A stretch of DNA of 35,390 nucleotides, from positions 1 to 35,390 of the forward strand of contig PLTZ01000063.1 in NCBI GenBank assembly GCA_003164715.1, read 5' to 3'. This DNA is from Opitutaceae bacterium (GTDB lineage: Bacteria; Verrucomicrobiota; Verrucomicrobiia; Opitutales; Opitutaceae). Made by a program: the position numbers and the translations under genes. The notes below the pieces were generated by a model, which made no database searches, was not told the origin of the DNA, and saw nothing but the letters and a program-made list of their open reading frames with translations. Of this stretch, positions 51 through 32,186 are shown one piece after another (within the stretch, counting starts at the first letter, position 1; each line of letters begins with the position of its first letter).

Positions 51-86
51 AATCTACCTCACTGCCACCCGGGGCACTATGGGGTG
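51..86 (-). promoter_or_regulatory. Shared-box promoter reading off the left edge
   Basis: On the minus strand CACCCCAT (79-86) is followed after exactly 22 bp by TAGATT (51-56). This is the same box plus YAnnnT arrangement found throughout the window. The upstream half of the box is degenerate (TAATT in place of GGGTNA). The gene it serves must start at or beyond the left edge; a minus-strand ATG at 8-10 is a possible start. No gene body is visible here. Confidence 0.6.
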
Positions 87-347
87 AATTATGTATCCGG
101 TTCCCGGCACGGATAGGGCCTCGCCGGCTCTCTCCCGGCGGTGTCCTATGCGATCCACCCGCAGTGGCGTAGCCGCATTTCCAACGCATCAATATCAACC
201 GGGCCCGCATTGGCCGGCGCATGGACTCAGGAGGCCTGCGCGAAGGCACATTCCCGGGGGCGCCATTCCCCGGGGGACGGGAATCATCCGGCACGAACCA
301 AAGTGACTGAGCCTCTTTGCCGGTCGGCCGCGCCTTATGCGCACTCG
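87..347. other. No gene recognised
   Basis: Short open frames occur on both strands, but none has a recognisable domain, a convincing start or neighbour support. Apart from the left-edge promoter and the hairpin at 348-370 I see nothing in this stretch. Confidence 0.5.
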
Positions 348-370
348 CCGCGGCGCCCGGGCCGCCGCGG
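348..370 (-). terminator. GC-rich hairpin after the 376-1154 gene pair
   Basis: A perfect 8-bp stem (348-355 with 363-370, CCGCGGCG/CGCCGCGG) closes a 7-nt loop immediately downstream of the minus-strand stop codon at 376. There is no clear T-run, so it may be a transcript-end stabiliser or a non-canonical terminator. Confidence 0.4.
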
Positions 371-375
371 GGGGG

Positions 376-693
376 CTAGCGCCCGAACCGCTCCCAAGGG
401 TAATATTCCGCCTCGATGGGCATCGTATCCCATTCGAGAGCGTCCGGCGGGGAGGACTCGCAGATCGCTTTCCACGCGTTCTCCAGCTTGGTGAAACTGG
501 ACCATTTGCCTTCGGGCGACTTTGAAACGATGACGGCATTCGCGCCCGACCGCTCGATCAGGGACGCATAGGCCTCGGGGCCGCCCTTTGCGCCAAACTG
601 GTCCCACGGGATATGCACCACGATGATCGGGAGCTCGGAGGTCCATGACTTCCTCGCAACGGTCACCGCGAATTTTTTCATTGGAGCGGTCAT
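376..693 (-). CDS. Small protein of unknown function
   Basis: A 105-residue soluble protein (101 if translation starts at the second Met, 681, which gives MKKFAVTVARKSW). I do not recognise the family. It has no signal peptide or membrane segment. The middle (VHIPWDQFGAKGG, then YASLIERSGANAVIVSK) reads like alternating strand and helix of a small alpha/beta domain, and the C-terminal part is rich in Trp, Pro and Glu. It starts 11 nt after the stop of the secreted-protein gene at 705-1154, so the two are almost certainly co-transcribed from the promoter at 1165-1208. A GC hairpin follows its stop. Frame, spacing and composition support a real gene; function is unknown. Confidence 0.65.
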   Translation of the reverse strand: MTAPMKKFAVTVARKSWTSELPIIVVHIPWDQFGAKGGPEAYASLIERSGANAVIVSKSPEGKWSSFTKLENAWKAICESSPPDALEWDTMPIEAEYYPWERFGR

Positions 694-704
694 CGGCTAA
701 AAGG

Positions 705-1154
705 TCAGGAGGTGATGGTCGCGTTCATCTTATCGACGGCGCCCTGTGCGCGCTTCCACGCCTCGCCGATCTTGTCCTTTGCCGCGTTCCATGTATCCGG
801 GGTCGTCGCCTTCGCCAGTTCGCTGGTGCAACTCGTGAGGTAAGATCGGGAGTCGTCGACCTCCTTCATGGCAAAGTCCCAGTCCTTCATGTCCTTTGTC
901 ATGCTCGCCCGCTTGGCCTTGAGGACGCCTATCTCCCGATCAAGCCGGGCCGAGAGGCGCTCGACCCCTGCCGCGAAATGCGCCCTCTGGTCGTAGCCGT
1001 CGTTCTTGATCTCGGCCCAATGGGCTGCGGACCCTCCGTCCGAGGCGGCGACATTGATGACCTGGGCAGGCGCCCGGGAAATGGTCCCGACCGCGGCCGC
1101 GGCAAGCAATCCGAATGCGATCCCCATCCGGCCCATGCAGTATGCGGTATTCAT
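705..1154 (-). CDS. Secreted helical protein of unknown function
   Basis: A 149-residue protein whose start is placed at the ATG at 1152-1154 because it gives a standard signal peptide: basic start, hydrophobic GIAFGLLAAAAVGTI, then a likely signal peptidase site near APAQ. The frame is open upstream to 1310 but that extension is Arg/Pro-rich noise and crosses the promoter. The mature part (about residues 35-149) is predicted helical with heptad-like Leu/Ala spacing (GVERLSARLDREIGVLKAKR) and could form a periplasmic helical bundle. The -10 of its promoter ends 10 nt before the ATG, so the mRNA has almost no leader. First gene of a two-gene unit with 376-693. Family not recognised. Confidence 0.75.
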   Translation of the reverse strand: MNTAYCMGRMGIAFGLLAAAAVGTISRAPAQVINVAASDGGSAAHWAEIKNDGYDQRAHFAAGVERLSARLDREIGVLKAKRASMTKDMKDWDFAMKEVDDSRSYLTSCTSELAKATTPDTWNAAKDKIGEAWKRAQGAVDKMNATITS

Positions 1155-1164
1155 GATGATGTGA

Positions 1165-1208
1165 ACAGTAGCCCCCGGGCGCCCGATGCGCCATGGGTTC
1201 AACCCCCC
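1165..1208 (-). promoter_or_regulatory. Shared-box promoter for the 1154-376 unit
   Basis: On the minus strand a GGGTTGAACCCAT box (1193-1205) is followed after exactly 22 bp by TACTGT (1165-1170). GGGTTGAACCC is a nearly perfect inverted repeat, a compact form of the box. The start codon at 1154 lies only 10 nt beyond the -10. A second, perfectly palindromic copy of the half-site lies about 60 bp upstream at 1253-1270. Confidence 0.75.
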
Positions 1209-1252
1209 ATACCTCGCGCAGGATCGCCCCAAGGCGCATCGCGGATGCGGCA

Positions 1253-1270
1253 ATGGGGTGCTTACCCCAT
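1253..1270. promoter_or_regulatory. Perfect 18-bp palindromic operator
   Basis: ATGGGGTGCTTACCCCAT is a perfect inverted repeat: 7-bp arms ATGGGGT/ACCCCAT and a self-complementary-spaced centre. The arm equals the most conserved half of the promoter box seen across the window. No YAnnnT sits 22 bp away on either strand, so it is better read as an extra regulator-binding site than as a core promoter. It lies about 60 bp upstream of the box for the minus-strand unit and about 280 bp upstream of the response regulator gene. The ACCCCAT arm resembles the NarL-type heptamer (TACYNMT). Confidence 0.65.
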
Positions 1271-1551
1271 CGACTCGGGGTCGCCGCTGTGAGACGGTAA
1301 ACCTGGTCAATTCAGTAGGCGCCTCGTGAGTGGTGGCGTCTTTCTTTCTTGGTGGAACCTCCGTCTACACTGATTCTCAAAAGCCATTTGTTGAACTTCG
1401 TGATTCCCAATACCCGCAGCCCGGTCGCAAGAGGGCCGGATGGAGCTGTGCAACCGGCGATGCGGAGCGGCGCGATGCTTGCGCAAGGCGAAGAAATCGG
1501 AAATACTGTGGTCCCCGGCGTGACTCAAGGCGCGCGGCGCCCGATGAATCT
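1271..1551. other. Upstream region of the response regulator, no gene seen
   Basis: Open frames run through this stretch, one ending in an ATGA overlap with the response regulator start at 1552, but none encodes a recognisable domain. No copy of the shared box plus -10 arrangement points at 1552, so the promoter of the regulator gene is not identified. Confidence 0.4.
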
Positions 1552-2269: not shown

Positions 2270-3022
2270 TCAGGCGCAGGCGACGGCGATGTGCCCCGAG
2301 GGGCGGATGGGCCCGAACCAGCCGGTGCCGGGGGTCTCGGAGGCCCTCTCGGGATACGCCTCCGAAAGGAGCACGCGCAGGTTCTCCCGGGCGCGCCCGA
2401 TGCGGCTCTTCACGGTGCCGATGTTGATCCCCAGCGTCTCTGCGATGTCGGCGTAGGACTGGCTCTGGCCGTTGCGAAGCACGAGGATCTCGCGCTGGCT
2501 GGCGCCGAGCCTGTCCATGCACTCGGCGACGATCTCGGAGAATTCGCAGGAGGTTGCCTCGCGGGCGGGACTCGGGCCATCGCACGCGATCAGGTCGGCA
2601 AAGGTCTCCCTGTTGTCGTCGCTATACGAGCAGTCGAGCGAGAGGGTGGCATGGCGGCGCCGGCTGAAGTTGTGCTTGTGGCGGTTGCGGGACAGATTGA
2701 AGGCGATCCTGTGCAGCCACGTCGCAAGCGAGGAATCCCCGCGGAAGCGCGCCAGCCCGCGATGGGCCCGGATGAAGGTGTCCTGGGCTATCTCCTCGGC
2801 GTCGGCGTAATTGTGCAGGTGGCCGAACGCGACGGAGAACATCCTCTCCCTGTAGCGGGCGACGATCGCGACGAACGCGTCCTCGTCCCCGAACCTGAAG
2901 CGGCGCACCAGGTCGGCGTCATGGATGGCGGCCTGGCTTGAAATCGTCTCGCGCGCGGTGCGACCGGGCCTGCCGGAAGGGGCCTGGAGCGTGGAACCGT
3001 AATCTGAGTTAGTTGCGACCAT
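2270..3022 (-). CDS. ECF RNA polymerase sigma factor (sigma-E-like)
   Basis: A 250-residue sigma-70-family factor of the extracytoplasmic type. Region 2 (about 44-115) contains DAFVAIVARYRERMF and the core-binding/-10 segment NYADAEEIAQDTFIRAHRGL, with DSSLATWLHRIAFNLSRN after it. Region 4 (about 167-222) contains LGASQREILVLRNGQSQSYA and the HTH GINIGTVKSRIGRARENL. The roughly 40-residue N-terminal extension is low complexity. No other good in-frame start precedes region 2. No anti-sigma gene is adjacent on either side. The -10 of its promoter ends 10 nt before the start codon, so its mRNA is nearly leaderless, and the promoter carries the shared box. It is divergent from the BON-domain gene, whose box lies 40 bp away. 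Confidence 0.93.
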   Translation of the reverse strand: MVATNSDYGSTLQAPSGRPGRTARETISSQAAIHDADLVRRFRFGDEDAFVAIVARYRERMFSVAFGHLHNYADAEEIAQDTFIRAHRGLARFRGDSSLATWLHRIAFNLSRNRHKHNFSRRRHATLSLDCSYSDDNRETFADLIACDGPSPAREATSCEFSEIVAECMDRLGASQREILVLRNGQSQSYADIAETLGINIGTVKSRIGRARENLRVLLSEAYPERASETPGTGWFGPIRPSGHIAVACA

Positions 3023-3032
3023 TGTGGGCGGG

Positions 3033-3074
3033 ACACTACACGCGAAACATGCGGGCCCAAATGGGGTGAAGTAC
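3033..3074 (-). promoter_or_regulatory. Shared-box promoter of the ECF sigma gene
   Basis: Minus-strand CACCCCAT (3061-3068, preceded by a degenerate upstream half GTACTT) is followed after exactly 22 bp by TAGTGT (3033-3038). Only 10 nt separate the -10 from the ATG at 3022, so the transcript would be leaderless or have a leader of a few nucleotides. Confidence 0.7.
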
Positions 3075-3102
3075 TATCGGGCGGGCGCACCGCTCGGCAT
3101 GC

Positions 3103-3144
3103 GCTGAACACCCCATAGCGGCTGCGGGCCGCGTCTGGTAATGT
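3103..3144 (+). promoter_or_regulatory. Shared-box promoter of the BON-dps unit
   Basis: TGAACACCCCAT (3105-3116) is followed after exactly 22 bp by TAATGT (3139-3144). It is back to back with the sigma-factor promoter. The predicted transcript start near 3151 leaves about 150 nt before the BON gene, and an ATG lies right at that predicted start (3152). Confidence 0.75.
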
Positions 3145-3300: not shown

Positions 3301-4056
3301 ATGATTAACGAAATGACAACATACACACGCATCGCGCTGCTACTCGCCGCGGCCCTTCCGGTCGCGTTATTCGCCTCCTCAACCAACGACGGCAAGATCC
3401 AGGACGCCGCGAAGGATTCCTACAACTTCCGCACGGTCCTTAACGACCGCGTAACCGCAAACGTGAACGACGGCGTCGTCACGCTGACGGGCACGGTACA
3501 GGACAAGGACGACAAGGCCCTGGCCGAGGACACCGTGGAGAACCTCCCGGGAGTCGTAAAGGTCGACAACCAGATCAACGTCAAGGCGGACTATCCCGAG
3601 CATTCCGATGAATGGATCGCGCTCAAGATCCGCAGCAGGCTGCTCGTGAAGGCCAACGTGAGCGCCACCGCCACGACGGTCAACGTCAAGGACGGTATCG
3701 TCACGCTGACAGGCACCGCGATCAACGGGGCCCAGAAGGACCTCACCGAGGCCTATGCGAAGGACATCGACCACGTGAAGGCCGTCAGGAACGAGATGGT
3801 TGTCGAGTCATCGGCCCCCGTCGCAAGCACGGTTGGCGAGACGATTGACGACGCGTCGATCACCTCCCAGGTGAAGTTCGCGCTCCTAAGCCACAGCTCG
3901 ACGAGCGCTCTCTCGACAAAGATCATCACCGAGAACGCCGTCGTCAGCATCACGGGCGTCGCAAAGTCTGACGCTGAAAAGTCCTTTGTCACCAAGCTCG
4001 CCCAGGACACACGCGGGGTGAAGTCGGTGGTGAACGACATGACGGTCAAGATCTGA
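3301..4056 (+). CDS. Secreted triple BON-domain protein
   Basis: A 251-residue exported protein with a signal peptide (hydrophobic IALLLAAALPVALFASS) and three BON domains in tandem: about 30-100, 103-172 and 180-251. Each shows the family pattern of an N-terminal helix, then a glycine-containing hairpin (NDGVVTLTGTV, KDGIVTLTGTA, ENAVVSITGVA), then a helix ending in GVV/HVKAV/GVKSVVN and a final strand. BON proteins such as OsmY sit in the periplasm and bind membrane or envelope partners under osmotic and stationary-phase stress. ATG 3313 (MTTYTRIALL) is an equally good start. First gene of a likely unit with dps and two small membrane-protein genes, under a shared-box promoter. Confidence 0.9.
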   Translation: MINEMTTYTRIALLLAAALPVALFASSTNDGKIQDAAKDSYNFRTVLNDRVTANVNDGVVTLTGTVQDKDDKALAEDTVENLPGVVKVDNQINVKADYPEHSDEWIALKIRSRLLVKANVSATATTVNVKDGIVTLTGTAINGAQKDLTEAYAKDIDHVKAVRNEMVVESSAPVASTVGETIDDASITSQVKFALLSHSSTSALSTKIITENAVVSITGVAKSDAEKSFVTKLAQDTRGVKSVVNDMTVKI

Positions 4057-12740: not shown

Positions 12741-12782
12741 AGCGTAGGCTGAAAGCCCGCGGCGAACCATGGGGTGTTACCC
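12741..12782 (-). promoter_or_regulatory. Shared-box promoter of the carbon operon
   Basis: Minus-strand GGGTAACACCCCAT (12769-12782), an exact match to the strongest form of the box, is followed after 22 bp by TACGCT (12741-12746). It is the only promoter seen for the PRC, reductase, aldolase, rpiB, pgm, glgP series, about 7.6 kb. Confidence 0.85.
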
Positions 12783-13095: not shown

Positions 13096-13137
13096 GGGTA
13101 AGACCCCATTCCCAATTTGGGCTAAAGGGGGCATTTT
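13096..13137 (+). promoter_or_regulatory. Shared-box promoter of VOC gene 1
   Basis: GGGTAAGACCCCAT (13096-13109), one base away from the best box, is followed after exactly 22 bp by CATTTT (13132-13137). The predicted transcript start is about 20 nt before the VOC start at 13165. Confidence 0.75.
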
Positions 13138-16708: not shown

Positions 16709-16750
16709 ATAGTGCGCTCGGGGTGCGGCGCGGATAATGGGGTGTAACCC
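16709..16750 (-). promoter_or_regulatory. Shared-box promoter of the 16647-15020 unit
   Basis: Minus-strand GGGTTACACCCCAT (16737-16750) is followed after exactly 22 bp by CACTAT (16709-16714). The site lies just beyond the terminator hairpin of the upstream ABC operon. Confidence 0.8.
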
Positions 16751-22004: not shown

Positions 22005-22047
22005 AGTCTAGCCTGCCGTGACCCGGCAGGACTATGGGGTGTTACCC
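22005..22047 (-). promoter_or_regulatory. Shared-box promoter of DUF2934 and probably the ABC exporter
   Basis: Minus-strand GGGTAACACCCCAT (22034-22047), an exact copy of the best box, is followed by TAGACT (22005-22010). The spacing is 23 bp, one of two exceptions to 22. Confidence 0.8.
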
Positions 22048-22072: not shown

Positions 22073-22588
22073 CTAAATGTCGCGGCTCCATGCGCCCTCG
22101 GACCAAGTGTCGCCCAAAAAGGCGAGTTTGATCCGCATGCGCTCGCATTCGCGTCGAAGCTGGCAAATCAGCGGCAGCGCGCGGCGGTGCACGCCGAGAT
22201 ACCGCCGGTAATGCTCAATCCGGCTGATCTCCTCCACGGCATCGTTGTCGAAGGTCGGCTCCCGGGTCACCGGGTCCGGTCGGGCGTCGAGCAGGCCGAG
22301 ACGGCAGTAGTACCGGAGCATCTCCGGGTGCACGCCGGTCAGATGGGCGGCGTCCCAGAGCGAGTGGCGCGGCGCGGGGCCCGGGGGCAGGCAGACGAGG
22401 GTCAGCTCTGCGCACGTGTAGAGGACGAAATTCGCCGGGAACTGCCCCGGCGGCCTTGCGGCGGATGGCGCCCGGCGCCCCGGCTGGGGGCGGTTCGTGC
22501 GCGGCCCGCGGTTCTGCGAGCCTTTGGGCGCGGGTTTGGCGGTGCCACTGCCCGAAGGCGATGCGGTGTGCGGCGCGGGAGAATTCAT
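22073..22588 (-). CDS. CbpM/MerR-like HTH protein
   Basis: A 171-residue protein (187 residues from an upstream ATG at 22636). The first about 60 residues are a disordered Pro/Ser/Arg-rich tail. The core has a MerR-like HTH (SLWDAAHLTGVHPEMLRYYCRLGLL, then EPTFDNDAVEEISRIEHYRR) and a C-terminal helix (YLGVHRRALPLICQLRRECERMR). This is the order seen in CbpM, the modulator of the DnaJ-like co-chaperone CbpA, but also in short MerR regulators. No cbpA gene is nearby. It is divergent from the ATPase gene, with back-to-back shared-box promoters. Confidence 0.7.
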   Translation of the reverse strand: MNSPAPHTASPSGSGTAKPAPKGSQNRGPRTNRPQPGRRAPSAARPPGQFPANFVLYTCAELTLVCLPPGPAPRHSLWDAAHLTGVHPEMLRYYCRLGLLDARPDPVTREPTFDNDAVEEISRIEHYRRYLGVHRRALPLICQLRRECERMRIKLAFLGDTWSEGAWSRDI

Positions 22589-22663: not shown

Positions 22664-22706
22664 AGGATGCGCCTAAGGTCCCGCGCTGGATATGGGGTGT
22701 AACCCC
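22664..22706 (-). promoter_or_regulatory. Shared-box promoter of the CbpM/MerR-like gene
   Basis: Minus-strand GGGGTTACACCCCAT (22692-22706) is followed after exactly 22 bp by CATCCT (22664-22669), one of the weaker -10 hexamers. Confidence 0.7.
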
Positions 22707-22735: not shown

Positions 22736-22779
22736 GGGTGGAACACCCCATTGTCGAGTCGTCGGCGACCCGGCAGGGT
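22736..22779 (+). promoter_or_regulatory. Shared-box promoter of the proton ATPase
   Basis: GGGTGGAACACCCCAT (22736-22751) is followed after exactly 22 bp by CAGGGT (22774-22779). An ATG begins 8 nt after the -10 (22788). The box lies 30 bp from the box of the divergent promoter. Confidence 0.7.
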
Positions 22780-22787: not shown

Positions 22788-22895
22788 ATGACCGAGTTCA
22801 ACCCCGACAGGCTGGCGGCCGGATTAGGGGCGGGAGCCTGCCCCTTGAAACTCGATTCGGGGCCGCGGCGAGCCTCTCGGGGGGCTCTCCCGTGA
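22788..22895 (+). CDS. 35-residue leader ORF coupled to the ATPase, or its shifted N-terminus
   Basis: The ATG at 22788 is 8 nt from the -10 hexamer and opens a 35-codon frame (MTEFNPDRLAAGLGAGACPL..., ending RGALP). Its TGA at 22893-22895 overlaps the in-frame GTG (22892) of the ATPase as GTGA, a classical coupling arrangement. It may be a leader peptide that loads ribosomes on a leaderless mRNA. Alternatively it may be the original N-terminus of the ATPase, separated by a frameshift or a sequencing error. Confidence 0.45.
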   Translation: MTEFNPDRLAAGLGAGACPLKLDSGPRRASRGALP

Positions 22896-25231
22896 CCCCG
22901 GGCTCGCCCGCCAAGGGAGCACCCTCGGCCGCGGGCCTCACGGGCGCTGAGGCGCGCCTGCGGCTTGAAAAGTTTGGCCCGAACACGATACCCGACACGA
23001 CCCTGCGTCCGATTCGCCGGGCGCTGGCGAAATTCTGGGCTCCGGTCCCGTGGATGCTCGAGGCGGCGATCGTGCTCGAGCTTGCCCTCGGCAAGGCCGT
23101 CGAGGCCTCGATCATCCTGGTTCTCCTGGCCTTCAACGCGGTCCTCGGGTTCCTCCAGGAGGGAAGGGCGCAGGCGACCCTTGCCGCGCTGAGGTCGCGG
23201 CTCGCCCTCAGCGCGTCGGTGCTGCGGGACGGTGCCTGGGCGACCGTGGCCGCCTCGCAGCTCGTCCCCGGCGACAGCGTGAAGCTCTCGGTCGGCGCCG
23301 TGGTGGCCGCCGACGTGCGCATCACCGCGGGCGGGGTCCTGCTCGACCAGTCGATGCTCACCGGAGAATCGATACCCGTCGAGGCCGGTCCCGGGCTCCA
23401 GACCTATGCGGGCGCGCTCGTGCGCCGCGGCGAGGCCGTGGCCGAGGTCACCGCGACCGGGTCGCGCACAAAGTTCGGGCGCACTGCGGAACTGGTGCGG
23501 ATCGCGCACGTCGAGAGCACGCAGCAGAAGGCGGTCGTTCGCGTCGTCCGAAACCTCGCCATCTTCAACGGCGCCGTGATCGCGGTCATGGGGGGCTACG
23601 CCCACGTCCTGCACCTGCCGCCCGGCGAGATCATCCCGCTGGTGCTCACGGGCATCCTGGCCTCGATCCCGGTGGCGCTGCCGGCGACCTTCACCCTGGC
23701 GGAGGCTCTCGGCGCCCGGAACCTGGCGCACCGTGACGTTCTTCTGACCCGGCTTTCCGCCGTCGACGAGGCGGCGAGCATCGACGTGCTGTGCGCGGAC
23801 AAGACGGGCACGCTGACCCTCAACGAGCTGAAGGTTTCCGTCACGCGCCCGATGCCGGGCTTCGACGAGGCGCACGTCCTCGGGATGGCCGCCCTGGCAA
23901 GCTCCGAGGGCGGGCAGGACCCCGTGGACAACGCCGTTTGCGCTGCGGCTGCGCCGTCCCCTCCTTCCGACCTGCCGAAGCGGGTCACGTTCGTGCCCTT
24001 CGACTCGGCCACCAAGATGTCCGAGGCGACGGCGCTGGACGCTGGCGGCGCAACCGTGCGCGTGGTGAAGGGGGCTTTTGAGGCCGTCGTGGTCCTCGCG
24101 CAGCCGTTGCCGGAGGCGAGCGCGATCGCAAGCCAGATGGAGGCGCAGGGGATCAGGGTCCTGGCCGTGGCGATCGGCCCGCCCGGGGCGCTCAGGCTCG
24201 CCGGCATGATTGGCCTCGGCGACACGCCCAGGGCGGATTCCGCGGCGCTCGTGACCGAGTTGCGCACGCTGGGCGTCCGCACGATCATGATCACGGGCGA
24301 CGCCCCCGTGACGGCCGCGATCGTGGCGCGCGCCGTGGGCCTTGACGGGCCGGTCTGCCCGCCCGGGCCGATCCCCGAAAAGGTGCGGGCCGAGGATTTC
24401 GCGGTCTTCGCCGGCGTGCTGCCCGAGGGGAAATTCGACCTCGTGAAGGCGTTTCAGAGGGGCGGCCACACGGTCGGCATGTGCGGCGACGGCGCCAACG
24501 ACGCGCCTGCGCTCCGCCAGGCGCAGATGGGGGTTGCGGTCTCCACGGCGACCGATGTCGCCAAGTCCGCGGCCGGCGTCGTCCTGACGAAGCCCGGGCT
24601 CGGGGGGATTGTCGCCTCGGTGAAGGAGGGCCGCATGGCGTTTCAGCGCATCCTCACCTATGCGCTCAACTCCGTCACCAAGAAGACCGTGCAGATCCTC
24701 TTCCTCGCCGTGTGCCTCGTCATGACCGGGCACGCGATCCTGACCCCGATGCTGATGGTGATCATCATGCTGACCGGCGACCTGCTCGGCATGTCGCTGG
24801 CCACGGACAACGTTCAGCCGTCGCCGCTGCCAAATGCCTGGCGAATCGGCACGTTGACGGCCGCGGGCGTCGTCATGGGAGTCGCCGAACTGATCTTCTG
24901 CGCCGGCGCCGTCGCGGTGGGGAAATACCGCCTGGGCCTCGGTCTCGAGACGCTCCGGACCCTGGCGTTCGTGGCCATCGTGTTCGGCAACCAGGCGACG
25001 ACGTACACGAACCGGGAGCGCCGGCACCTATGGCGTTCCCGCCCAAGCCCATGGCTGGTCGGATCCTCCGCCGTGGACGTTCTCATCGCCTCAACGCTCG
25101 CAGCCTGTGGATTGGCGATGGCCCCGCTTCCCCTCTCCTTGGTGGTGGGCCTGCTTCTGGGCGCGGCCCTCTTCGCCGTCCTCCTCGACTTTGTGAAGGT
25201 GCCGGTGCTCAGGCGCCTCAGGATTGGGTAG
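22892..25231 (+). CDS. P3A-type (plasma-membrane H+-ATPase-like) P-type ATPase
   Basis: A 779-residue P-type ATPase from GTG 22892. Domains in order: N-terminal GLTGAEARLRLEKFGPN, TM1-2, actuator loop with LTGES, TM3-4 with the ion-site PVALPATFTLAEALGA, the phosphorylation motif CADKTGTLT, the nucleotide domain, TGDAPVTA, the hinge GDGANDAPALRQAQMGVAV, and TM5-10. The PVALPA motif and short ends match the P3A proton pumps of fungi, plants and some archaea and bacteria. It would extrude protons with ATP, useful when respiration stops. A longer start in the same frame (22751) overlaps the promoter and is unlikely. See the leader ORF at 22788. Confidence 0.9.
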   Translation: MTPGSPAKGAPSAAGLTGAEARLRLEKFGPNTIPDTTLRPIRRALAKFWAPVPWMLEAAIVLELALGKAVEASIILVLLAFNAVLGFLQEGRAQATLAALRSRLALSASVLRDGAWATVAASQLVPGDSVKLSVGAVVAADVRITAGGVLLDQSMLTGESIPVEAGPGLQTYAGALVRRGEAVAEVTATGSRTKFGRTAELVRIAHVESTQQKAVVRVVRNLAIFNGAVIAVMGGYAHVLHLPPGEIIPLVLTGILASIPVALPATFTLAEALGARNLAHRDVLLTRLSAVDEAASIDVLCADKTGTLTLNELKVSVTRPMPGFDEAHVLGMAALASSEGGQDPVDNAVCAAAAPSPPSDLPKRVTFVPFDSATKMSEATALDAGGATVRVVKGAFEAVVVLAQPLPEASAIASQMEAQGIRVLAVAIGPPGALRLAGMIGLGDTPRADSAALVTELRTLGVRTIMITGDAPVTAAIVARAVGLDGPVCPPGPIPEKVRAEDFAVFAGVLPEGKFDLVKAFQRGGHTVGMCGDGANDAPALRQAQMGVAVSTATDVAKSAAGVVLTKPGLGGIVASVKEGRMAFQRILTYALNSVTKKTVQILFLAVCLVMTGHAILTPMLMVIIMLTGDLLGMSLATDNVQPSPLPNAWRIGTLTAAGVVMGVAELIFCAGAVAVGKYRLGLGLETLRTLAFVAIVFGNQATTYTNRERRHLWRSRPSPWLVGSSAVDVLIASTLAACGLAMAPLPLSLVVGLLLGAALFAVLLDFVKVPVLRRLRIG

Positions 25232-25328: not shown

Positions 25329-25370
25329 GGGTTACACCCCATGTCGCGCATGCGCGCCCGAGGATAGAGT
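25329..25370 (+). promoter_or_regulatory. Shared-box promoter of phosphoketolase
   Basis: GGGTTACACCCCAT (25329-25342) is followed after exactly 22 bp by TAGAGT (25365-25370). The predicted start near 25377 gives a leader of about 95 nt. Confidence 0.85.
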
Positions 25371-25471: not shown

Positions 25472-27856
25472 ATGAGCACGAATTCCAACACCCAGACACT
25501 CACGGCCGACGAGGTGCACCTGATCGATTCCTACTGGCGGGCCGCCAATTACCTTTCGGTAGGCCAGATCTATCTCTTCGACAACCCGCTCCTGAAGCGG
25601 CCGCTGACGCTGGCGGACGTGAAGCTCATGCTCCTCGGCCACTGGGGCACGACCCCGGGGCAGAACTTCATCTACGCGCACCTCAACCGGGTGATCAAGA
25701 AGTTCGACCTCGACATGATCTACGTCTCGGGCCCCGGGCACGGCGGCCCGGCGGTGGTGGGCAACACGTACCTCGAGGGCACCTACAGCGAGATCTATCC
25801 CGACATCAGCCAGGACGAGGCGGGGCTGCGCAAGCTGTTCCTCCAGTTCTCGTTTCCCGGCGGGATCCCAAGCCACGCCTCCCCGGAATGCCCGGGCTCC
25901 ATCCATGAGGGCGGTGAGCTCGGCTACTCCATCAGCCACTCGTTCGGCGCGGTCTTCGACAACCCCGACCTGGTCGTCGCCTGCGTCGTGGGCGATGGGG
26001 AGGCTGAGACCGGGCCGCTCGCGACCGCCTGGCACTCGAACAAGTTCCTCGATCCGGTGACGGATGGCGCGGTGCTTCCGATCCTGCACCTAAACGGCTA
26101 CAAGATCTCCAATCCGACCGTGCTCGCCCGCATCACGCACGAGGAACTTGAGCAGCTTCTTCGGGGGTATGGGTGGGCGCCTCTTTTCGTCGAGGGGCAC
26201 GAGCCGGCGCCGATGCACGAGGCCATGGCCGCCGCCCTGGACGCGGCGGTCGGGCGGATTAAGGACATCCAGGCGGACGCCCGAGTCCGCGGAAACATGG
26301 TGCGCCCGCGCTGGCCCATGATCGTCCTGAATTCGCCCAAGGGATGGACCGGACCGAAGGTGGTCGACGGACTGCAGGTGGAGGGCACGTTCAGGGCGCA
26401 CCAGGTGCCACTAATCGTGTCGCCCGCGTCCCCCCCGGAGCATCTCAAGCAGCTCGAGGACTGGCTGAGGAGCTATCGGCCCGAGGAGCTCTTTGACGGG
26501 GCGGGCCGCCTAAAGCCGGAACTGTCGGAGCTCGCGCCGAAGGGCGAGCGGCGCATGGGCGCCAATCCCCACGCCAACGGGGGCATCCTGCTGCGCGACC
26601 TGAGGATGCCCGACTTCCGCGACTACGCACAAGCCGTGCTGGCCCGGGGAGCCCCGGGCCCCGGGGACACGCACGTGCTCGGGCGTTTCCTGCGCGACGT
26701 GACGAAGCTCAACGAGGAAAAGCGCAATTTCAGGGTCTTCGGCCCGGACGAGACGCTCTCCAACGGGCTGGAGTCCCTCTTCGAGGTGACCCGCCGGCAG
26801 TGGGACGCGGCGACGCAATCCAACGACGAGTTCCTGGCCCCCACCGGGCGTGTCATGGAGATGCTCAGCGAGCACCAGTGCGAGGGATGGCTTGAGGGCT
26901 ATCTCCTCACGGGCCGGCACGGGCTCTTCAACTGCTACGAGGCGTTCATCCACATCGTGGACTCAATGTTCAACCAGCACGCCAAGTGGCTCAAGGTCAC
27001 CTCCCACCTGCCGTGGCGCCGGAAGATATCATCCCTGAACTACCTGCTCTCCTCGCACGTATGGCGCCAGGACCACAACGGCTTCACGCACCAGGACCCG
27101 GGGTTCATCGACCACGTGGTCAACAAGAAGGCCGAGATTGTCCGGGTCTACCTTCCACCCGACGCGAACTGCCTGCTGTCGGTCATGGACCACTGCCTGC
27201 GCAGCCGCCACTACGTCAACGTGGTGGTCGCGGGGAAGCATCCATCGCCCCAGTGGCTCACGATGGACGCGGCCCTGAAGCACTGCACCGAGGGCGTCGG
27301 CATCTGGCAGTGGGCCAGCAACGATCAGGGCTCCGCGCCCGACCTGGTCATGGCCTGCTGCGGCGACGTGCCGACGCTTGAGACGCTTGCGGCGGTCTCG
27401 ATCCTGCGCGAGCACCTGCCGGAGCTGAAAGTGAGGGTGGTGAACGTGGTCGACCTGTTTAAGCTGGAGCCGCAGACCGAGCATCCCCACGGGCTGAGCG
27501 AGACGGACTTTGACGAGCTCTTCACCCGGGACAGGCCGGTCATCTTCGCCTTCCATGCGTACCCCTGGCTCATCCACCGTCTGACGTACCGGCGCACGAA
27601 CCACGTCAACTTCCACGTCCGCGGCTACAAGGAGGAGGGCACGATCACCACGCCGTTCGACATGACGGTCCTGAACGAGATGGACCGCTTCCACCTAGTG
27701 ATGGATGCCGTCGACCGTCTGCCGCAGACGGGCGCCAAGGGCTCCTACCTGAAACAGCAGCTCAAGGACAAGCTGGTCGAGCACAAGCAGTACATCGACA
27801 AGCACGGAGAGGACCTGCCTGAGATCCGCAACTGGACGTGGGGCGTCTTCAATTGA
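25472..27856 (+). CDS. xfp: Xylulose-5-phosphate/fructose-6-phosphate phosphoketolase
   Basis: A 794-residue thiamine-diphosphate enzyme that splits xylulose-5-phosphate (and usually fructose-6-phosphate) with phosphate into acetyl phosphate and an aldose phosphate. Visible motifs: [60 protein letters not shown], the cofactor-binding [20 protein letters not shown], and the C-terminal [14 protein letters not shown]. Length matches the family. The start at 25472 (MSTNSN) is used; the frame is open upstream but crosses the promoter. No acetate kinase gene is adjacent. With glgP, pgm and rpiB it would complete a route from stored glucan to acetyl phosphate. Confidence 0.96.
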
Positions 27857-27988: not shown

Positions 27989-28198
27989 TCAGCGCCTGAA
28001 TCCCGGCGGGTGCAGGTCCAAGCCCACTCCGCCGCGCCCACCGCCCCAGCGGCCGCCGTCCATCCAACCGCCGTCGTGGTACCAGCCGCCGCGATAGCCT
28101 CCGCCTCCGACGCCCACGTCTGCGACGCAGCCGGCGAGTGCGAATTGAACGCCCGAGAGAACAAGGGCAGCGAGAACGATTTTGTAGGTGGTTTTCAT
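27989..28198 (-). CDS. Glycine-rich lipoprotein, copy 2
   Basis: A 69-residue lipoprotein with the same plan as the one at 14064-14393: basic start MKTTYK, hydrophobic stretch with the shared LVLSGVQF core, lipobox ending at C24 (LAGC), then a Gly/Trp/Asp/Arg-rich mature part (GGGGYRGG, DGGWMDGGRWGGGRGG). It overlaps the stop of the VOC gene upstream by ATGA. It is shorter than copy 1, lacking the Ser/Gly/His repeats. Function unknown. Confidence 0.75.
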   Translation of the reverse strand: MKTTYKIVLAALVLSGVQFALAGCVADVGVGGGGYRGGWYHDGGWMDGGRWGGGRGGVGLDLHPPGFRR

Positions 28199-29097
28199 GG
28201 GCGGGTGGCCGGATTGGCGTTGTCGATGTATTGCACGATGCCGACCGTGCCGCCCGTTGGGTCGGCGATCACGGCGAAGCGGCTTCCAAATGCGGCGTTA
28301 TGCGGTGGGACCATGACTTCCCCTCCCAGCGACGGAACGCGCACTAGGGTCTCGTCGAGGCTGATGACGCGCACGACGCCGAGCCATCCGGGCTTGGCGC
28401 CTTCGCTATCAGGCATGACGGACACGCCCCCGCGATTCACGCCGCCCGTCGACAGGAGCAGCTCGCTCCCGCTTCCGGTGCGGGAATCCGGCGCGACCTC
28501 GTAGGTGAAGACCTGGCGGTAGAATTCCGCGGCGGCCTTCGGGTTCTTGACAAAGAGATGGCTCCAGTTCCATCCGCCGTTCGTCGGCTCGTTGTCAGCT
28601 GAGTCGCCTGAACTCGACTGGAGGAGGCCGAAGGGCGAGCCCTCGTTGTCGGTTGCGATGGCGAGCGAACCCAGGTTGGGGAACTTGCGGGCGGGCGCGC
28701 GGACCTCGCCGCCCGCCTTTGCGACGACTGAGAGCGCCGCGTCGATATCGGTCACCGAGACGTAGTGGATCCAGCGGGCGGGGTGGCCCGGCTTCGCCAC
28801 GGTGCGCTGCCTCAAGCCCGCGACGGGATGGCCGTCATTGCTGAATACCGTGTAGGCGTCGCCGTGCTCCACGACCGTGGCGGCCGTCCAGGAGAACACC
28901 CCGGTGTAGAACTTGGTCGCGGCCGCGGCATCGGACGTGAAGAGTTCCGCCCAGACGAATTTCCCGGCGTGCGTCTCGCCCGACTTGGGATCGTTGAGGG
29001 CCGGGAAGCTTGCGGCGCGGGCTGGGGTTATGGACGCGATTGCCATCATCGCCAGGGAGAGGACTGTCGCCAGTCTGCAAGGGAGGGTTTTATTCAT
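28195..29097 (-). CDS. Secreted double-VOC protein, copy 2
   Basis: A 300-residue protein, the same length as copy 1 (13165-14067) and similar throughout. It has a signal peptide (LATVLSLAMMAIASITPARA), then VOC domain 1 (about 45-155, FVWAELFTSDAAAATKFYTG) and VOC domain 2 (about 170-295, GGWNWSHLFVKNPKAAAEFY to GTVGIVQYIDNANPATRP). Both copies end with the near-identical GTVG(L/I)VQY-DNANPA. The gene is coupled to the glycine-rich lipoprotein gene by an ATGA overlap, exactly as in copy 1. Its shared-box promoter is at 29172-29213. Metal-ligand positions are not clearly kept, so a binding rather than catalytic role is possible. Confidence 0.88.
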   Translation of the reverse strand: MNKTLPCRLATVLSLAMMAIASITPARAASFPALNDPKSGETHAGKFVWAELFTSDAAAATKFYTGVFSWTAATVVEHGDAYTVFSNDGHPVAGLRQRTVAKPGHPARWIHYVSVTDIDAALSVVAKAGGEVRAPARKFPNLGSLAIATDNEGSPFGLLQSSSGDSADNEPTNGGWNWSHLFVKNPKAAAEFYRQVFTYEVAPDSRTGSGSELLLSTGGVNRGGVSVMPDSEGAKPGWLGVVRVISLDETLVRVPSLGGEVMVPPHNAAFGSRFAVIADPTGGTVGIVQYIDNANPATRP

Positions 29098-29171: not shown

Positions 29172-29213
29172 ACCATAGCGTACGACCTCCTGCGGCAGAA
29201 TGGGGTGTTACCC
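29172..29213 (-). promoter_or_regulatory. Shared-box promoter of VOC gene 2
   Basis: Minus-strand GGGTAACACCCCAT (29200-29213), an exact best box, is followed after exactly 22 bp by TATGGT (29172-29177). The leader to the ATG at 29097 is about 70 nt. Confidence 0.85.
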
Positions 29214-29372: not shown

Positions 29373-29416
29373 GGGTTGAACACCCCATGGCGACGGGGCG
29401 GCGGCCGGAATATGGT
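29373..29416 (+). promoter_or_regulatory. Shared-box promoter of the WXXGXW lipoprotein
   Basis: GGGTTGAACACCCCAT (29373-29388) is followed after exactly 22 bp by TATGGT (29411-29416). The ATG at 29423 starts only 6 nt after the hexamer, so it coincides with the expected transcription start: a clear leaderless case. Confidence 0.85.
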
Positions 29417-29422
29417 GGGCTC

Positions 29423-29950
29423 ATGAGAAATCCTATTCTTGGTGTTCCGTCGCCAGCGGCCTCCGCTCGCGCCGCGCGGTCGCTCGCTCCTCTTCTCGCA
29501 TGCTGTGGGGCCCTCGGCCTTTTCATGGTCGGCTGCTCAACCGAGCCCGAATCGCATGTCGTCTCCGCGCCGCCTCCTCCGGGCCCCAATCGGGCTGTGA
29601 CGACGACGACGGTCGTGTCGAGTCCCGCCATGGTGCAGAATCCCACGGTGGTCGTCGCGAACCCCGGCTACGGGACCCCCGCCTATGTGACAACCACCCA
29701 AGCAGCCCCTGCCACGAACACGATGATCGTGACCCAGCAGGCTCCGCCCGCGTTGCAGCAGGAGGTCGTCCTCTCGCAGCCGACGCCGCAGCATGTCTGG
29801 CTCGCTGGCTTCTGGACGTGGCGCAACGACAGGTACGAGTGGATGGCTGGCCACTGGGAACTGCCGCCGAACTCAGGATCAGTTTGGGTTTCGCCACGCT
29901 GGGAGCAGCAGGGCAACGCCTATAGGTTCTACGAAGGCTACTGGAATTGA
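29423..29950 (+). CDS. WXXGXW-repeat lipoprotein
   Basis: A 175-residue lipoprotein. The long signal (ARSLAPLLACCGALGLFMVGC) has its lipidated Cys at about residue 38. A Thr/Val/Pro-rich linker (about 45-115) leads to a C-terminal Trp-rich domain (HVWLAGFWTWRNDRYEWMAGHWELPP, WVSPRWEQQGNAYRFYEGYWN) of the YXWXGXW/BcpO type, a beta-rich repeat with unknown role in the outer envelope. The start at 29423 follows from the signal peptide and from the -10 ending 6 nt upstream. In-frame upstream sequence would cross the promoter. A pair of hairpins follows its stop. Confidence 0.85.
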   Translation: MRNPILGVPSPAASARAARSLAPLLACCGALGLFMVGCSTEPESHVVSAPPPPGPNRAVTTTTVVSSPAMVQNPTVVVANPGYGTPAYVTTTQAAPATNTMIVTQQAPPALQQEVVLSQPTPQHVWLAGFWTWRNDRYEWMAGHWELPPNSGSVWVSPRWEQQGNAYRFYEGYWN

Positions 29951-30010: not shown

Positions 30011-30033
30011 AAGAGTCTAGGAGCCAAGACCTC

Positions 30034-30070: not shown

Positions 30071-30157
30071 TGAAACCTGGAGCCGTTGGACGTGCGCCGC
30101 GAAGGCGGCGCGCCCTGAAGGCCATCACCGCAAACCCGGCCAAGCGGAAGCTTTAAC

Positions 30158-30469: not shown

Positions 30470-30529
30470 TGGCACCGGGTGCGGGTCCGGCGGCCCGTGC
30501 CTGGGGCGCTGCCTACCGGCTGCAACGTC

Positions 30530-30571
30530 GGGTAACACCCCATACCGCGGGCATAGGGCTCGGAGTAGCTT
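30530..30571 (+). promoter_or_regulatory. Shared-box promoter of the membrane coiled-coil protein
   Basis: GGGTAACACCCCAT (30530-30543), an exact best box, is followed after exactly 22 bp by TAGCTT (30566-30571). The ATG at 30581 lies 9 nt beyond the hexamer, so the leader is about 2-3 nt. Confidence 0.85.
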
Positions 30572-30580
30572 AATTTCACC

Positions 30581-31258
30581 ATGCCCGACGCTCCCATACC
30601 TGCCCCGGAGAATACGCCCGCCCAAGTGAAACCCGCGGCTGCCGCCGCCAGCACCGCCAAGGCGCCGGCTCCCGCCGCAAAGCCCGCGGCTCTCGCCGCC
30701 CCCGTCCCGGCGAAGAGGCCCGTACTGGCCATCGCCTTCGGCGCGCTTTCGGCGGTCCTCCTGGTTGCCGTGCTCCTGTTCTGGAGCCAGCTCGCCGACC
30801 GGAACCAATCCATCGTGCAGGGCCAGAACCGGCTGAACCAGGCTCAGGCCGCCGTCCTCGTCCTGCAGACGCAGCTTAGCGAGGCCAAGGCGGCCACGGC
30901 CCGGATCCAGAAGCGGATGGATGAGGTCAAGGTCGAGTCAACCCAGCGCCAGACCGACCTGGACAAGGTCAAGGCCGGCGATGTCGACCTCCAGGCGGAC
31001 CTGGACAAGAGCCGGGCCATAGCGACCGATTTCCAATCGCAGATGGAGGATGCCAAGGTCGTCTCCATCAAGCACCAGGGTGAGGTGGAGATAGCCCAGG
31101 CCCAGGCGAAGGTGATGCTGGAGCAGCTGAACGAGGCCAAGGCCGACAGCGTGGAGCTCCAGGCGCAGCTGGCCGATTCCAAGGCGTCGGCCGCCGACCT
31201 TCAGACGAAGCTCGAGGCGGCTGAGAAGCTGATCGCGAAGCTGCAGACCAAGACCTAG
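30581..31258 (+). CDS. Membrane-anchored coiled-coil protein
   Basis: A 225-residue protein in three parts: an Ala/Pro/Lys-rich N-terminal arm (1-45, APAAKPAALAAPVPAK), one transmembrane helix (about 48-67, VLAIAFGALSAVLLVAVLLF), and a long heptad coiled coil (about 72-223) with repeated LQTQLSEAK, LQADLDKSR, LQAQLADSK, LQTKLEAAEK units. A type II topology with a periplasmic coiled coil is likely. The low-complexity arm is like that of the HlyD adaptor at 19480-20901. I do not recognise a named family; it may act as a scaffold or tether in the envelope. Nearly leaderless by the promoter geometry. Confidence 0.75.
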   Translation: MPDAPIPAPENTPAQVKPAAAAASTAKAPAPAAKPAALAAPVPAKRPVLAIAFGALSAVLLVAVLLFWSQLADRNQSIVQGQNRLNQAQAAVLVLQTQLSEAKAATARIQKRMDEVKVESTQRQTDLDKVKAGDVDLQADLDKSRAIATDFQSQMEDAKVVSIKHQGEVEIAQAQAKVMLEQLNEAKADSVELQAQLADSKASAADLQTKLEAAEKLIAKLQTKT

Positions 31259-31279
31259 GCGCCGCCCTTCGCACCCGGA

Positions 31280-31918
31280 TCAGGCGCCGGGGCCGTCCCG
31301 GGAGTCCGGTGCCGCCGCGGCGGCCGCGGGTGATTCAATATCCCCGTAGGCCCGGCGGACCTCCTCTACGTGCTCCCGGTATCCCTCGGCGTCGCCAAAA
31401 TCGACGAACTTCTTGTAGCGGCTGTGGGCGCACTTGGAGCAGTTGGCGTGCTTGATGGGGCAAAAGTGCTGCTCGGTGCGCGCGGCGATCTCGGTGAAGT
31501 AGGCGAGTATCCCGTTCGCATACGCACAGTATTCGCAGTTCATCTTCTCGGCCAGGTTCAGGTAGGTGAGGCGGTGGCGGTCGAACGCGATGTACTCGCT
31601 GCGGCGGACCTTCGGGATCCCGTAGATCGGAAAGCAGATTGCCTGGTAGACGGAGGCAACCAAGTCGGAGAGGAGGATGGGCACTGCGCACATCCAGATC
31701 ACGGGCGACGTGATGACGACCAGGAACCGGGAATGGAGCAGGTAGTGATGGAAGCCGATGCGAAGGCGCCGGTGCTCCACCTTTACAGCCTCGGTGAAAT
31801 GGGCCTTCCGTTCCTTGAAGGTATAGCAGAACTGCTCCCCCTTCTTGTGGGTCTCCTCAATGATTTCCTTTTCCAGTTGCCGCATTTGGCCGAGCAGGGT
31901 GTCGAGTCTGTCGTTCAT
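31280..31918 (-). CDS. Membrane protein with a Cys-rich cytosolic or periplasmic cluster
   Basis: A 212-residue protein. A charged helical N-terminus (1-60) leads to a hydrophobic segment (about 65-95, VVITSPVIWMCAVPILLSDLVASVY). The C-terminal half has a Cys/His cluster: C128 and C131 (CEYC), C153 and H157 (CPIKHA), C160 and C163 (CSKC), H165. It could bind zinc, haem or an iron-sulfur cluster. An Ala-rich tail ends the protein. The ATG at 31918 is used because the upstream frame crosses the promoter. It resembles conserved hypothetical proteins with a C-x2-C...F-C-P-I-K motif, but I cannot name the family. The promoter box is at 32063-32076. Confidence 0.75.
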   Translation of the reverse strand: MNDRLDTLLGQMRQLEKEIIEETHKKGEQFCYTFKERKAHFTEAVKVEHRRLRIGFHHYLLHSRFLVVITSPVIWMCAVPILLSDLVASVYQAICFPIYGIPKVRRSEYIAFDRHRLTYLNLAEKMNCEYCAYANGILAYFTEIAARTEQHFCPIKHANCSKCAHSRYKKFVDFGDAEGYREHVEEVRRAYGDIESPAAAAAAPDSRDGPGA

Positions 31919-32033
31919 GGTGGTGGGTGGGGACTGGGAGGGGCCTGATTCGGCCGTTAAAAGGACCGGAGCTGAAATGCCGCGTTTGGGCGCGGCAGCG
32001 GCGGTGCCACGGCGGGTGTGCCCCGGGCGGCCC

Positions 32034-32076
32034 AATGTAGGGCAATACCCGCACCTTGGTCTGTGGGGTTAAACCC
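32034..32076 (-). promoter_or_regulatory. Shared-box promoter of the Cys-rich membrane protein
   Basis: Minus-strand GGGTTTAACCCCAC (32063-32076), a two- to three-base variant of the box, is followed after 23 bp by TACATT (32034-32039). One of two sites with 23-bp spacing. Confidence 0.65.
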
Positions 32077-32142
32077 TACGGCCGGGGCCGGCTTGCGGAG
32101 GCGGCACTCGGCCGTGGTCGTGCGCCGCGGGACAAGGCAACT

Positions 32143-32186
32143 GGGAGGAACACCCCATACCGCTCCCCGACGCGGTGGCGCACAAT
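32143..32186 (+). promoter_or_regulatory. Shared-box promoter of the cyclic glucan synthase
   Basis: GGGAGGAACACCCCAT (32143-32158) is followed after exactly 22 bp by CACAAT (32181-32186). The leader to the ATG at 32404 is about 210 nt and holds no recognised element. Confidence 0.7.

Follow-up and report, generated by a model that had tools for sequence, protein, structure and literature searches.

A palindromic DNA box that leads nearly every transcription unit in the stretch of Opitutaceae DNA analyzed here (35,390 nucleotides, hereafter the window) is probably the operator of the NarL-family response regulator (RR) encoded at 1552–2229, which would activate a stress-type regulon from a YAnnnT −10 hexamer. 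On sequence evidence, the box is real regulatory DNA and its most likely reader is this RR. The predicted targets include genes for an ECF sigma factor, BON and PRC-barrel proteins, a phosphoketolase and a P-type ATPase.

Results

Box and promoter architecture in the window

Every ACCCCAT, AACCCAT and ACCCCAC was listed on both strands of the window, giving 26 places. A YAnnnT hexamer follows 16 of these box-like strings, at 22 bp in 14 cases and at 23 bp in two (hexamers 22005 and 32034), as the original prediction had it for both the number of boxes and the gap (Table 1). Its further claim that each box is aimed at the first gene of a unit holds for the 15 gene starts inside the window, while the site at 79 points past the left edge; placing "nearly every unit" under one box was a fair description. 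The start at 16647 was preferred over the ORF-list start at 16710, which falls inside the hexamer, because the homologues begin like 16647. Site 1193 is the least certain of the 16. A 17th box, absent from the original prediction, lies upstream of the RR gene (ATGGGGTGCTTACCCCAT), with a degenerate hexamer.

The box is a palindrome, TGGGGTG-NN-CACCCCA or a form 1 bp shorter, that ends near −35 (consensus GTNGGGTTACACCCCATAGC; second form TGGGGTGAACACCCCAT), with about half of the boxes having 1 bp less between the arms. Two palindrome spacings 1 bp apart are unusual for one dimer, and we counted this against the RR reading.

A pattern drawn up from the window sites once they were known, and so not blind, matched 16 times in the window, compared with a mean of 0.14 and a maximum of 2 in 300 first-order simulations. 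Genome-wide, the exact box GGGTNNCACCCCAT is present at 11 places, seven of them in the window, and its reversed form at none.

Table 1 Boxes and selected genes of the window. The box end is the one facing the hexamer; "Model" refers to the genome-wide search described below; fractions are homologues of the led gene with a box upstream.
Feature	Positions	Strand	Box end; gap; hexamer	Model	Gene led and remarks
Box 79–92	51..92	−	79; 22 bp; TAGATT (51–56)	hit, E 0.14	off left edge
Compact box GGGTTGAACCCAT, 1193–1205	1165..1205	−	1193; 22 bp; TACTGT	no hit	gene 705–1154
Palindromic box ATGGGGTGCTTACCCCAT, 1253–1270	1253..1298	+	22 bp; GACGGT (1293–1298)		upstream of RR gene
NarL/FixJ-type RR, receiver + GerE HTH, 225 aa	1552..2229	+			proposed box-binding activator
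ECF-type sigma factor	2270..3022	−			conserved putative target; Pfam sigma70 r2/r4
Box 3061–3074, left arm degenerate	3033..3074	−	3061; 22 bp; TAGTGT	no hit	near-leaderless ECF sigma gene 2270–3022; 11/20, box at −40 to −79
Box 3101–3116	3101..3144	+	3116; 22 bp; TAATGT	hit	BON-domain gene 3301–4056; 8/22
BON-domain protein, three BON stretches	3301..4056	+			nearest NCBIfam model OsmY, below cut-off
Box 12769–12782	12741..12782	−	12769; 22 bp; TACGCT	hit	run 12671–5081 (PRC-barrel/ADH/FBA/RpiB/PGM/glucan phosphorylase); PRC gene 7/11
Box 13096–13109	13096..13137	+	13109; 22 bp; CATTTT	no hit	glyoxalase-fold gene 13165–14067; 4/6
Box 16737–16750	16709..16750	−	16737; 22 bp; CACTAT	hit	conserved unknown gene from 16647 and downstream ADH; 6/7 (two of the six are one contig twice, one has a GAnnnT hexamer)
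Box 22034–22047	22005..22047	−	22034; 23 bp; TAGACT	hit	DUF2934 gene 21743–21955; 3/3
Box 22692–22705	22664..22705	−	22692; 22 bp; CATCCT	hit	MerR-like gene 22073–22588; 0/3
Box 22736–22751	22736..22779	+	22751; 22 bp; CAGGGT	hit	P-type ATPase gene 22892–25231; 0/3
Box 25329–25342	25329..25370	+	25342; 22 bp; TAGAGT	hit	phosphoketolase gene 25472–27856; 2/2
Box 29200–29213	29172..29213	−	29200; 22 bp; TATGGT	hit	glyoxalase-fold gene 28195–29097; 4/6
Box TGGGTTG-AA-CACCCCAT	29373..29416	+	29388; 22 bp; TATGGT	hit	gene 29423–29950, ATG 6 nt past hexamer; 3/4
Box 30530–30543	30530..30571	+	30543; 22 bp; TAGCTT	hit	gene 30581–31258, ATG 9 nt past hexamer; 2/3
Box 32063–32076, ends CCCCAC	32034..32076	−	32063; 23 bp; TACATT	no hit	gene 31280–31918; 1/3, final C identical (L153)
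Box 32143–32158	32143..32186	+	32158; 22 bp; CACAAT	hit	long gene from 32404 off contig, weak glycosyltransferase match; 1/2, with GAnnnT hexamer

An assignment of the P-type ATPase as a calcium pump was rejected, as the top NCBIfam model is the proton-efflux type, with a score under the model's cut-off.

The response regulator and its link to the box

The ORF at 1330–2229 carries the Pfam domains Response_reg and GerE (E 7.7e-26 and 3.2e-18) that place it in the NarL/FixJ class, and its HTH is nearly invariant among orthologues. The original prediction had named no regulator. At least two boxes are present in 16 of the 26 relatives that have the RR versus 4 of the 69 that do not (p = 2.8e-8), in 19 of 33 phylum genomes with an RR orthologue versus 5 of 160 without (p = 2.7e-13) and, outside the bacterium's own family, in 16 of 23 versus 5 of 151, where these statistics ignore shared ancestry, the relatives and phylum sets overlap in part, and RR presence was scored on the 15 or 31 top-ranking candidates of each genome. 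The exact box is missing from 5 of the 26 relatives with the RR, and several genomes hold at least two RR copies.

Boxes also cluster around RR genes, 28 of 105 lying within 20 kb of one compared with 1.55 expected. In the RR loci, the first kb after the RR holds 0.32 sites per kb, the 3 kb before it 0.12–0.15 and the stretches at 8–10 kb 0.03–0.11, and no box site was found in 55 kb of RR coding sequence. Only 14 of 88 RR genes are preceded by a box-like string at a distance of up to 700 bp; in two congeners the box before the RR has GACGAT and GAGATT hexamers. Autoregulation of the RR through the box at 1253–1270 is possible.

Binding by another factor, such as the MerR-like protein or one encoded beyond the window, with the RR as a co-inherited neighbor or a target, seems unlikely. 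It would accommodate the nine genomes that have at least two boxes and no RR match at threshold (relatives G003, G006, G009 and G013; phylum genomes G097, G193, G196, G203 and G247), the possibility that the RR gene itself is box-led, and the position of the MerR-like gene inside the island. Among these genomes, G013 (98% complete) has five sites and G006 (97%) three, all with fitting −10s, and an HTH-only search of both returned only remoter paralogues, the two inspected having a different recognition helix; G009 matches RR residues 4–135 only. However, the MerR-like protein was rejected as the box reader, being matched in only 10 of 95 relatives and, among the 20 that have at least two boxes, in 6, while the dimeric HTH of the RR family suits a 7-2-7 palindrome and the linkage of boxes to RR genes holds phylum-wide.

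In ECF promoters, the −35 is short and about 16 bp separate it from the −10. It is very improbable that the box serves as a −35 element for an alternative sigma factor such as the one at 2270–3022, an ECF factor that would drive its own regulon, even though this gene is linked and box-led and ECF presence associates with boxes by itself (15/33 versus 5/62, p = 4e-5). With 14–16 bp and a distance of 22 or 23 bp to the hexamer, the palindrome exceeds both the length and the spacing expected of a sigma −35, and YAnnnT is a housekeeping-type −10. As a box reader, the ECF factor shows the weaker association, which is not significant once the RR is given: it adds nothing significant within genomes that have the RR (p = 0.23), whereas the RR does within genomes that have the ECF factor (p = 0.0025).

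A different RR-ECF pair, found in at least 20 of 61 family genomes, was also set aside: no box with a fitting hexamer was present at its loci in G000 (C78), G013 (C8) and G006 (C34), and its RR in G013 and G006 has another recognition helix.

Conservation of the gap, the palindrome and the start position

Eighty loci were fetched by the RR alone, not by the box. In these, YAnnnT follows CACCCCAT at 22 bp in 76 of 179 cases and at 23 bp in 27, compared with 0–9 at each other gap from 8 to 37. Gap-22 sites number 84 across the 80 loci, versus 0–3 in ten simulations and 2 in a separate single run; 44 loci have at least one and 36 have none. A GGGT arm stands 2 or 3 nt before CACCCCAT (51 and 50 cases) and at most seven times at any other distance, and the logo of the RR-locus sites has no separate conserved −35.

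An ATG lies 5–9 nt past the hexamer at 31 of 192 sites, the other 5-nt bins holding 0–10 each, and GTG and TTG have no peak past the hexamer at these 192 sites. Because of this ATG peak, the hexamer seems to act as a −10, and some of the targets appear to be leaderless; since the peak falls at the predicted +1, it also suggests that regulated leaderless mRNAs are regular in Verrucomicrobiota. The peak was counted on ATG positions only; an earlier short-leader count was possibly biased by start choice, and its control found an ORF within 350 bp of random places in 77% of trials.

Of 100 homologues of 15 box-led genes (RR left out), 54 are preceded by a box, versus 1 of 47 homologues of 11 control genes from the window. 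Given the strict 22/23-bp gap across many genomes, the palindrome and the ATG peak, the arrangement first suggested, an activator box over the −35 region and a housekeeping-type −10, fits best. A role of the box in repression, or one that has nothing to do with activation, is very unlikely: the sites do overlap the −35 region, where repressors bind too, but exact phasing to the −10 with no separate conserved −35 is typical of activator-dependent promoters, and the element keeps a fixed orientation relative to the gene, 31 of 192 sites having an ATG where the start is predicted.

Distribution in the genome and beyond

Nearer to a blind test comes a sequence-only model whose 64 training sites all lie outside the genus; at E ≤ 10 it gave 36 hits in the genome, 13 of them on the window's contig (0.93% of the genome). 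These 13 comprise 12 of the 16 sites and the palindrome before the RR gene, read on the other strand. Sites 1193, 3061, 13109 and 32063 were not reported by the model, the last three being backed by boxes before homologues. The regulon had been described as concentrated in the window, which it is, but it is not confined to it, 23 of the 36 hits lying on other contigs. Seven of these 23 are on contig C11, which holds a second RR copy; a perfect palindrome there (L206/L209) lacks a fitting hexamer on both strands.

The Verrucomicrobiota set yielded 131 box matches versus 19 in the reversed control (control tallied by hand). A PVC-group-wide regulon was rejected: G270 came into the analysis by way of a locus titled Phycisphaerae, and across 148 genomes from its phylum the box is at background (37 versus 39 reversed, tallied from the table), with single matches except in G270, G386 and G409. 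Sporadic transfer or contig misbinning may account for the loci from Phycisphaerae, Planctomycetes, Kiritimatiellae and Lentisphaerae.

Discussion

Box, gap, palindrome, ATG peak, conservation before homologues, and co-occurrence and linkage with the RR were computed; we infer binding, phosphorylation, activation rather than repression, the signal and the role of the ECF factor. The RR would be phosphorylated by a kinase and bind as a dimer to TGGGGTG-NN-CACCCCA or the 1-bp-shorter form, centered near −43.5 and ending at −35. Bound RR might replace or assist sigma region 4, bringing housekeeping RNA polymerase to the YAnnnT −10. The resulting stress-type regulon would comprise the roughly 16 units of the island here and about 16 to 23 more sites elsewhere in the genome, with about one in six targets made as leaderless mRNA. 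The ECF sigma factor among the targets could form a second regulatory layer, and the RR gene itself would possibly be a target through its weak −10.

A broader proposal, plausible though short of probable, is that the RR and the box lie at the center of a general stress or dormancy response, so far undescribed, across Verrucomicrobiota, with tens of operons, many of them leaderless, and a second-tier ECF factor, like DevR in mycobacteria and RpoS, SigB or EcfG elsewhere. The genes in such a reading would be those for glucan phosphorylase and phosphoketolase (reserve use), envelope BON/PRC proteins, Hsp70 and an ATP synthase alpha/beta-type protein.

The original prediction did not recognize the box from any described system. 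Among the titles that literature searches listed, none describes such a box or regulon; for Verrucomicrobiota, the listed titles and abstract starts of the open-licence literature gave no regulon or operator of this type; and a letter search for ACACCCCAT returned, among the matches listed, only papers unrelated by title. The analysis yields an operator with its candidate regulator, a rule that predicts start sites and a set of targets, all of which can be sought in any Verrucomicrobiota genome, that of the strain Geminisphaera colitermitum TAV2 (L098) among them, and it would assign several unknown proteins to one response.

Comparison with known systems

The plan resembles the DevR/OsdR and NarL systems, and the box differs. 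By sequence, the closest solved structure to the RR is VraR of Staphylococcus (131 bits, residues 4–216), which belongs to a different phylum and has other targets and another binding site. The RR stays below the NCBIfam NarL/NarP equivalog cut-offs, with 121.8 bits versus 250 (NarL) and 119.7 versus 343. NarL heptamers read TACYYMT-N2-AKRRGTA, whereas those here point outward (GGGGT..ACCCC), the reverse of NarL's. According to excerpts on E. coli yeaR and ogt, NarL uses inverted heptamers with a 2-bp spacer just upstream of or abutting −35; a single 7-2-7 site just upstream of −35 suffices for activation at yeaR, and the NarL II site of ogt is centered at −44.5 (PMC7419079). This layout fits one box form, the other having its arms 1 bp closer.

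DevR/DosR of Mycobacterium and OsdR of Streptomyces coelicolor are likewise NarL-subfamily RRs with a palindromic GGG...CCC box. In excerpts on these systems, the start-proximal DevR/DosR box overlaps the −35, as here (PMC3029386), and OsdR has a stress-gene island around its box-led regulator gene, with 20 of 22 genes near osdR (PMC5069765). An island of predicted targets around the regulator is found here too. No universal stress protein, nitroreductase or kinase, which are DevR/OsdR features, was seen among the window proteins scanned, and the box here, GGGGTG-NN-CACCCC, departs from the DevR/OsdR consensus AGGGCCGATCGGCCCT. In contrast to DevR/OsdR, the proposed regulon would have an ECF sigma factor as a core target and leaderless targets, and it belongs to another phylum.

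Box promoters in the window and across the genome

All 16 boxes of the original prediction, in both gap classes (22 or 23 bp to the YAnnnT hexamer), are present in the window, which is the entire contig C29 (35,390 bp) of a 3.79-Mb assembly in 92 contigs. Simulated sequence gave a mean of 0.14 matches to the pattern, which had been composed with the sites already in view, and chance is no explanation for the 16. Boxes followed by a hexamer at 22/23 bp reach 39.6 per 100 kb in the window versus 2.45 per 100 kb in 326 kb of sequence from the same genome, picked for holding four exact boxes and a second NarL-type response regulator (RR) gene.

The own genome was scanned at E ≤ 10 with a sequence-only model built from 64 sites outside the genus; the best 150 of 599 candidates were scored, and weak sites may be absent. 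At least 36 hits were obtained (at least 13 on the window contig, at least 7 on contig C11 and at least 16 scattered on further contigs), and 26 of the best 150 of 599 candidates, 10 of them in the window, reached E ≤ 0.05. The second RR, on C11 (locus L146), is 58% identical to that of the window, with nearly the same recognition helix; with its seven or more hits, this contig probably represents either a further island or a part of the window's island that the assembly separated. Among 18 fetched hits of the at least 23 outside the window, 16 have a hexamer at 22 bp, as partly expected of a model trained on that gap, and the remaining two are the two strands of one C11 palindrome and lack it. 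Seven of ten script-picked candidate targets of the outside sites matched a family: one is an Hsp70, two are PRC-barrel proteins, and the others are a receiver protein, an ATP synthase alpha/beta-type protein, a member of the MCRA family and a protein weakly resembling a glycosyl hydrolase. The remaining three matched nothing.

Features with coordinates in the own genome
Feature	Contig	Coordinates	Strand	Hexamer
Box ahead of RR	window (C29)	1253-1270	+	GACGGT
Gene for conserved protein	window (C29)	15955-16647		
Second RR	C11	40203-40865		
ECF match of the other RR-ECF pair	C78	80712-81302		

The response regulator as candidate reader of the box

With RR orthologues called at E ≤ 2.2e-56 in 95 relatives, two or more exact boxes were found in 16 of 26 genomes with RR versus 4 of 69 without (p = 2.8e-8, uncorrected for relatedness). 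The same held for 193 genomes of the phylum, a set that partly overlaps the first and is likewise uncorrected (19/33 versus 5/160, p = 2.7e-13), and for those outside the own family (16/23 versus 5/151). Within RR-carrying genomes, 28 of 105 exact boxes lie at most 20 kb from an RR gene, where at most 1.55 would be expected.

As a test independent of the box, 80 loci were taken by RR similarity alone (best 80 of 570), the box playing no part in their selection. The nearest three RR relatives come from Opitutaceae MAGs (Verrucomicrobiota), most likely the family of the source as well. These loci hold 84 sites with a 22-bp gap, spread over 44 of the 80, versus 0-3 in each of ten first-order simulations and 2 in one separate run. 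Sites are densest within 1 kb downstream of RR (0.32/kb); their density falls irregularly on the upstream side (0.12-0.15/kb in the 3 kb upstream) and is 0.03-0.11/kb at 8-10 kb; no site was found within RR coding sequence (55 kb). Of the 179 occurrences of CACCCCAT across the loci and the window, 76 are followed by YAnnnT after 22 bp and 27 after 23 bp, and each remaining gap in the range 8-37 accounts for 0-9; the left arm GGGT precedes it by 2 nt in 51 cases and by 3 nt in 50. In the window RR and its 80 orthologues, no position of the recognition-helix region KTVEKHR falls below 95% conservation.

Against the RR as reader stand nine genomes (G003, G006, G009, G013, G097, G193, G196, G203, G247) with two or more boxes but no RR above the threshold. 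Two of the nine, G006 and G013, are nearly complete and have well-formed box promoters; all matches of an HTH-only search in these two were more distant paralogues. The ECF sigma factor was rejected as reader: its association with the box is weaker (15/33 versus 5/62) and, given RR, not significant (p = 0.23), while that of RR persists among ECF-carrying genomes (p = 0.0025). The MerR-like protein, present in 10 of the 95 relatives, was also rejected.

A further RR-ECF pair, its genes close together, occurs in no fewer than 20 of the 61 genomes of the family, G013 C8, G018 C17 and G037 C113 among them. Its members share about 38% (RR) and 46% (ECF) identity with those of the window, which suggests that the island's pair came from duplication of a family-wide module. 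Many ECF matches of this other pair, including one in the own genome (see table), contain one in-frame TGA in the aligned stretch, perhaps an alignment overrun past the end or a conserved feature.

Conservation of the box ahead of genes

In a scan of one locus set for targets and controls alike, which also took GAnnnT hexamers, included some loci fetched by box coordinates and counted one contig twice (L021/L150), 54 of 100 homologues had a box within 420 bp upstream when the window gene was box-led (15 genes, RR excluded), versus 1 of 47 when it was one of 11 controls, also from the window and mostly located inside runs. None was found ahead of the homologues of the MerR-like gene or the P-type ATPase gene (three each). 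Three genomes of the same genus (G004, G008, G010) share the RR-ECF-BON triad, again with a pair of divergent promoters separating ECF from BON; in a fourth triad (G035) a single fitting box faces ECF, and box pairs at the ECF-BON position also occur in G002 and G005.

Homologues of RR itself have a box within 420 bp in 7 of 116 cases, and a box-like string lies within 700 bp upstream of 14 of 88 RR genes. The GAnnnT form seen in the window recurs ahead of RR in L186/L020 (GACGAT) and L154/L022 (GAGATT), the two handles of a pair standing for a single contig. Judged from these sequences, RR autoregulation through a weak -10 element is at most plausible.

The window gene at 15955-16647 and its homologues (L020, L021, L149, L153, L164), mostly box-led, encode a conserved protein for which neither Pfam nor NCBIfam gave a match.

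Promoter anatomy and functions of candidate targets

The 64 non-redundant sites from outside the genus were selected for a 22-bp gap and a left arm containing GG; their gap-free alignment shows two main forms, GGGT-NN-YACCCCAT and a near-perfect palindrome TGGGGTG-NN-CACCCCA (a 7-2-7 arrangement). Boxes of the two forms, whose palindrome spacings are 1 bp apart, divide differently between the 22- and 23-bp gaps (75:10 and 39:17).

No conserved -35 hexamer was seen between box and YAnnnT in the 80 loci and the window. An ATG opening a frame of at least 100 codons lies 5-9 nt past the hexamer at 31 of 192 sites versus 0-10 in every other 5-nt bin from -40 to +119, as expected of a -10 element with the transcript starting at the gene's first base; GTG/TTG showed no peak there at the same sites. 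The same holds in the window for the gene starts at 29423 (6 nt past the hexamer) and 30581 (9 nt), and nearly for that at 3022 (10 nt).

Among 116 first genes after boxes (80 loci and window), the most frequent Pfam domains are receiver (8) and ECF sigma region 4 (7), then BON, PAS, HATPase_c and PRC (6 each) and Ice_binding and AI-2E (4 each). Box-led units of the window encode ECF, BON, PRC, phosphoketolase, P-type ATPase, two glyoxalase-fold proteins and a MacB-type export set, and the PRC-led run also includes ADH, class I aldolase, RpiB, phosphoglucomutase and alpha-glucan phosphorylase. The scanned window proteins included no kinase. The box-led genes look like a stress or energy-limitation response.

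Range and comparison with known regulons

A wider spread was rejected: in 148 genomes from the same phylum as G270, a genome reached via a Phycisphaerae-titled locus, the box does not rise above background, which limits the claim to Verrucomicrobiota, with sporadic finds beyond. Geminisphaera is one cultured member of Verrucomicrobiota that has both the orthologue and boxes. Four loci titled Planctomycetes or Phycisphaerae (L034, L042, L062, L087) carry close RR orthologues and boxes, which, given that background, would reflect transfer or misbinning.

We found no description of the box, the regulator or the regulon in the open-licence literature, searched at the level of listings. The plan of RR, box and island is that of known NarL-family regulons, a kind already known. 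By likeness to DevR and OsdR (PMC5069765), hypoxia may be the signal. If transcription begins 7 nt past the hexamer, the centre of the palindrome falls at about -43.5, close to the NarL II site of Escherichia coli ogt at -44.5 and similar in placement to the single NarL site at yeaR (PMC7419079). It likewise matches the proximal DevR box, which overlaps the -35 region (PMC3029386).
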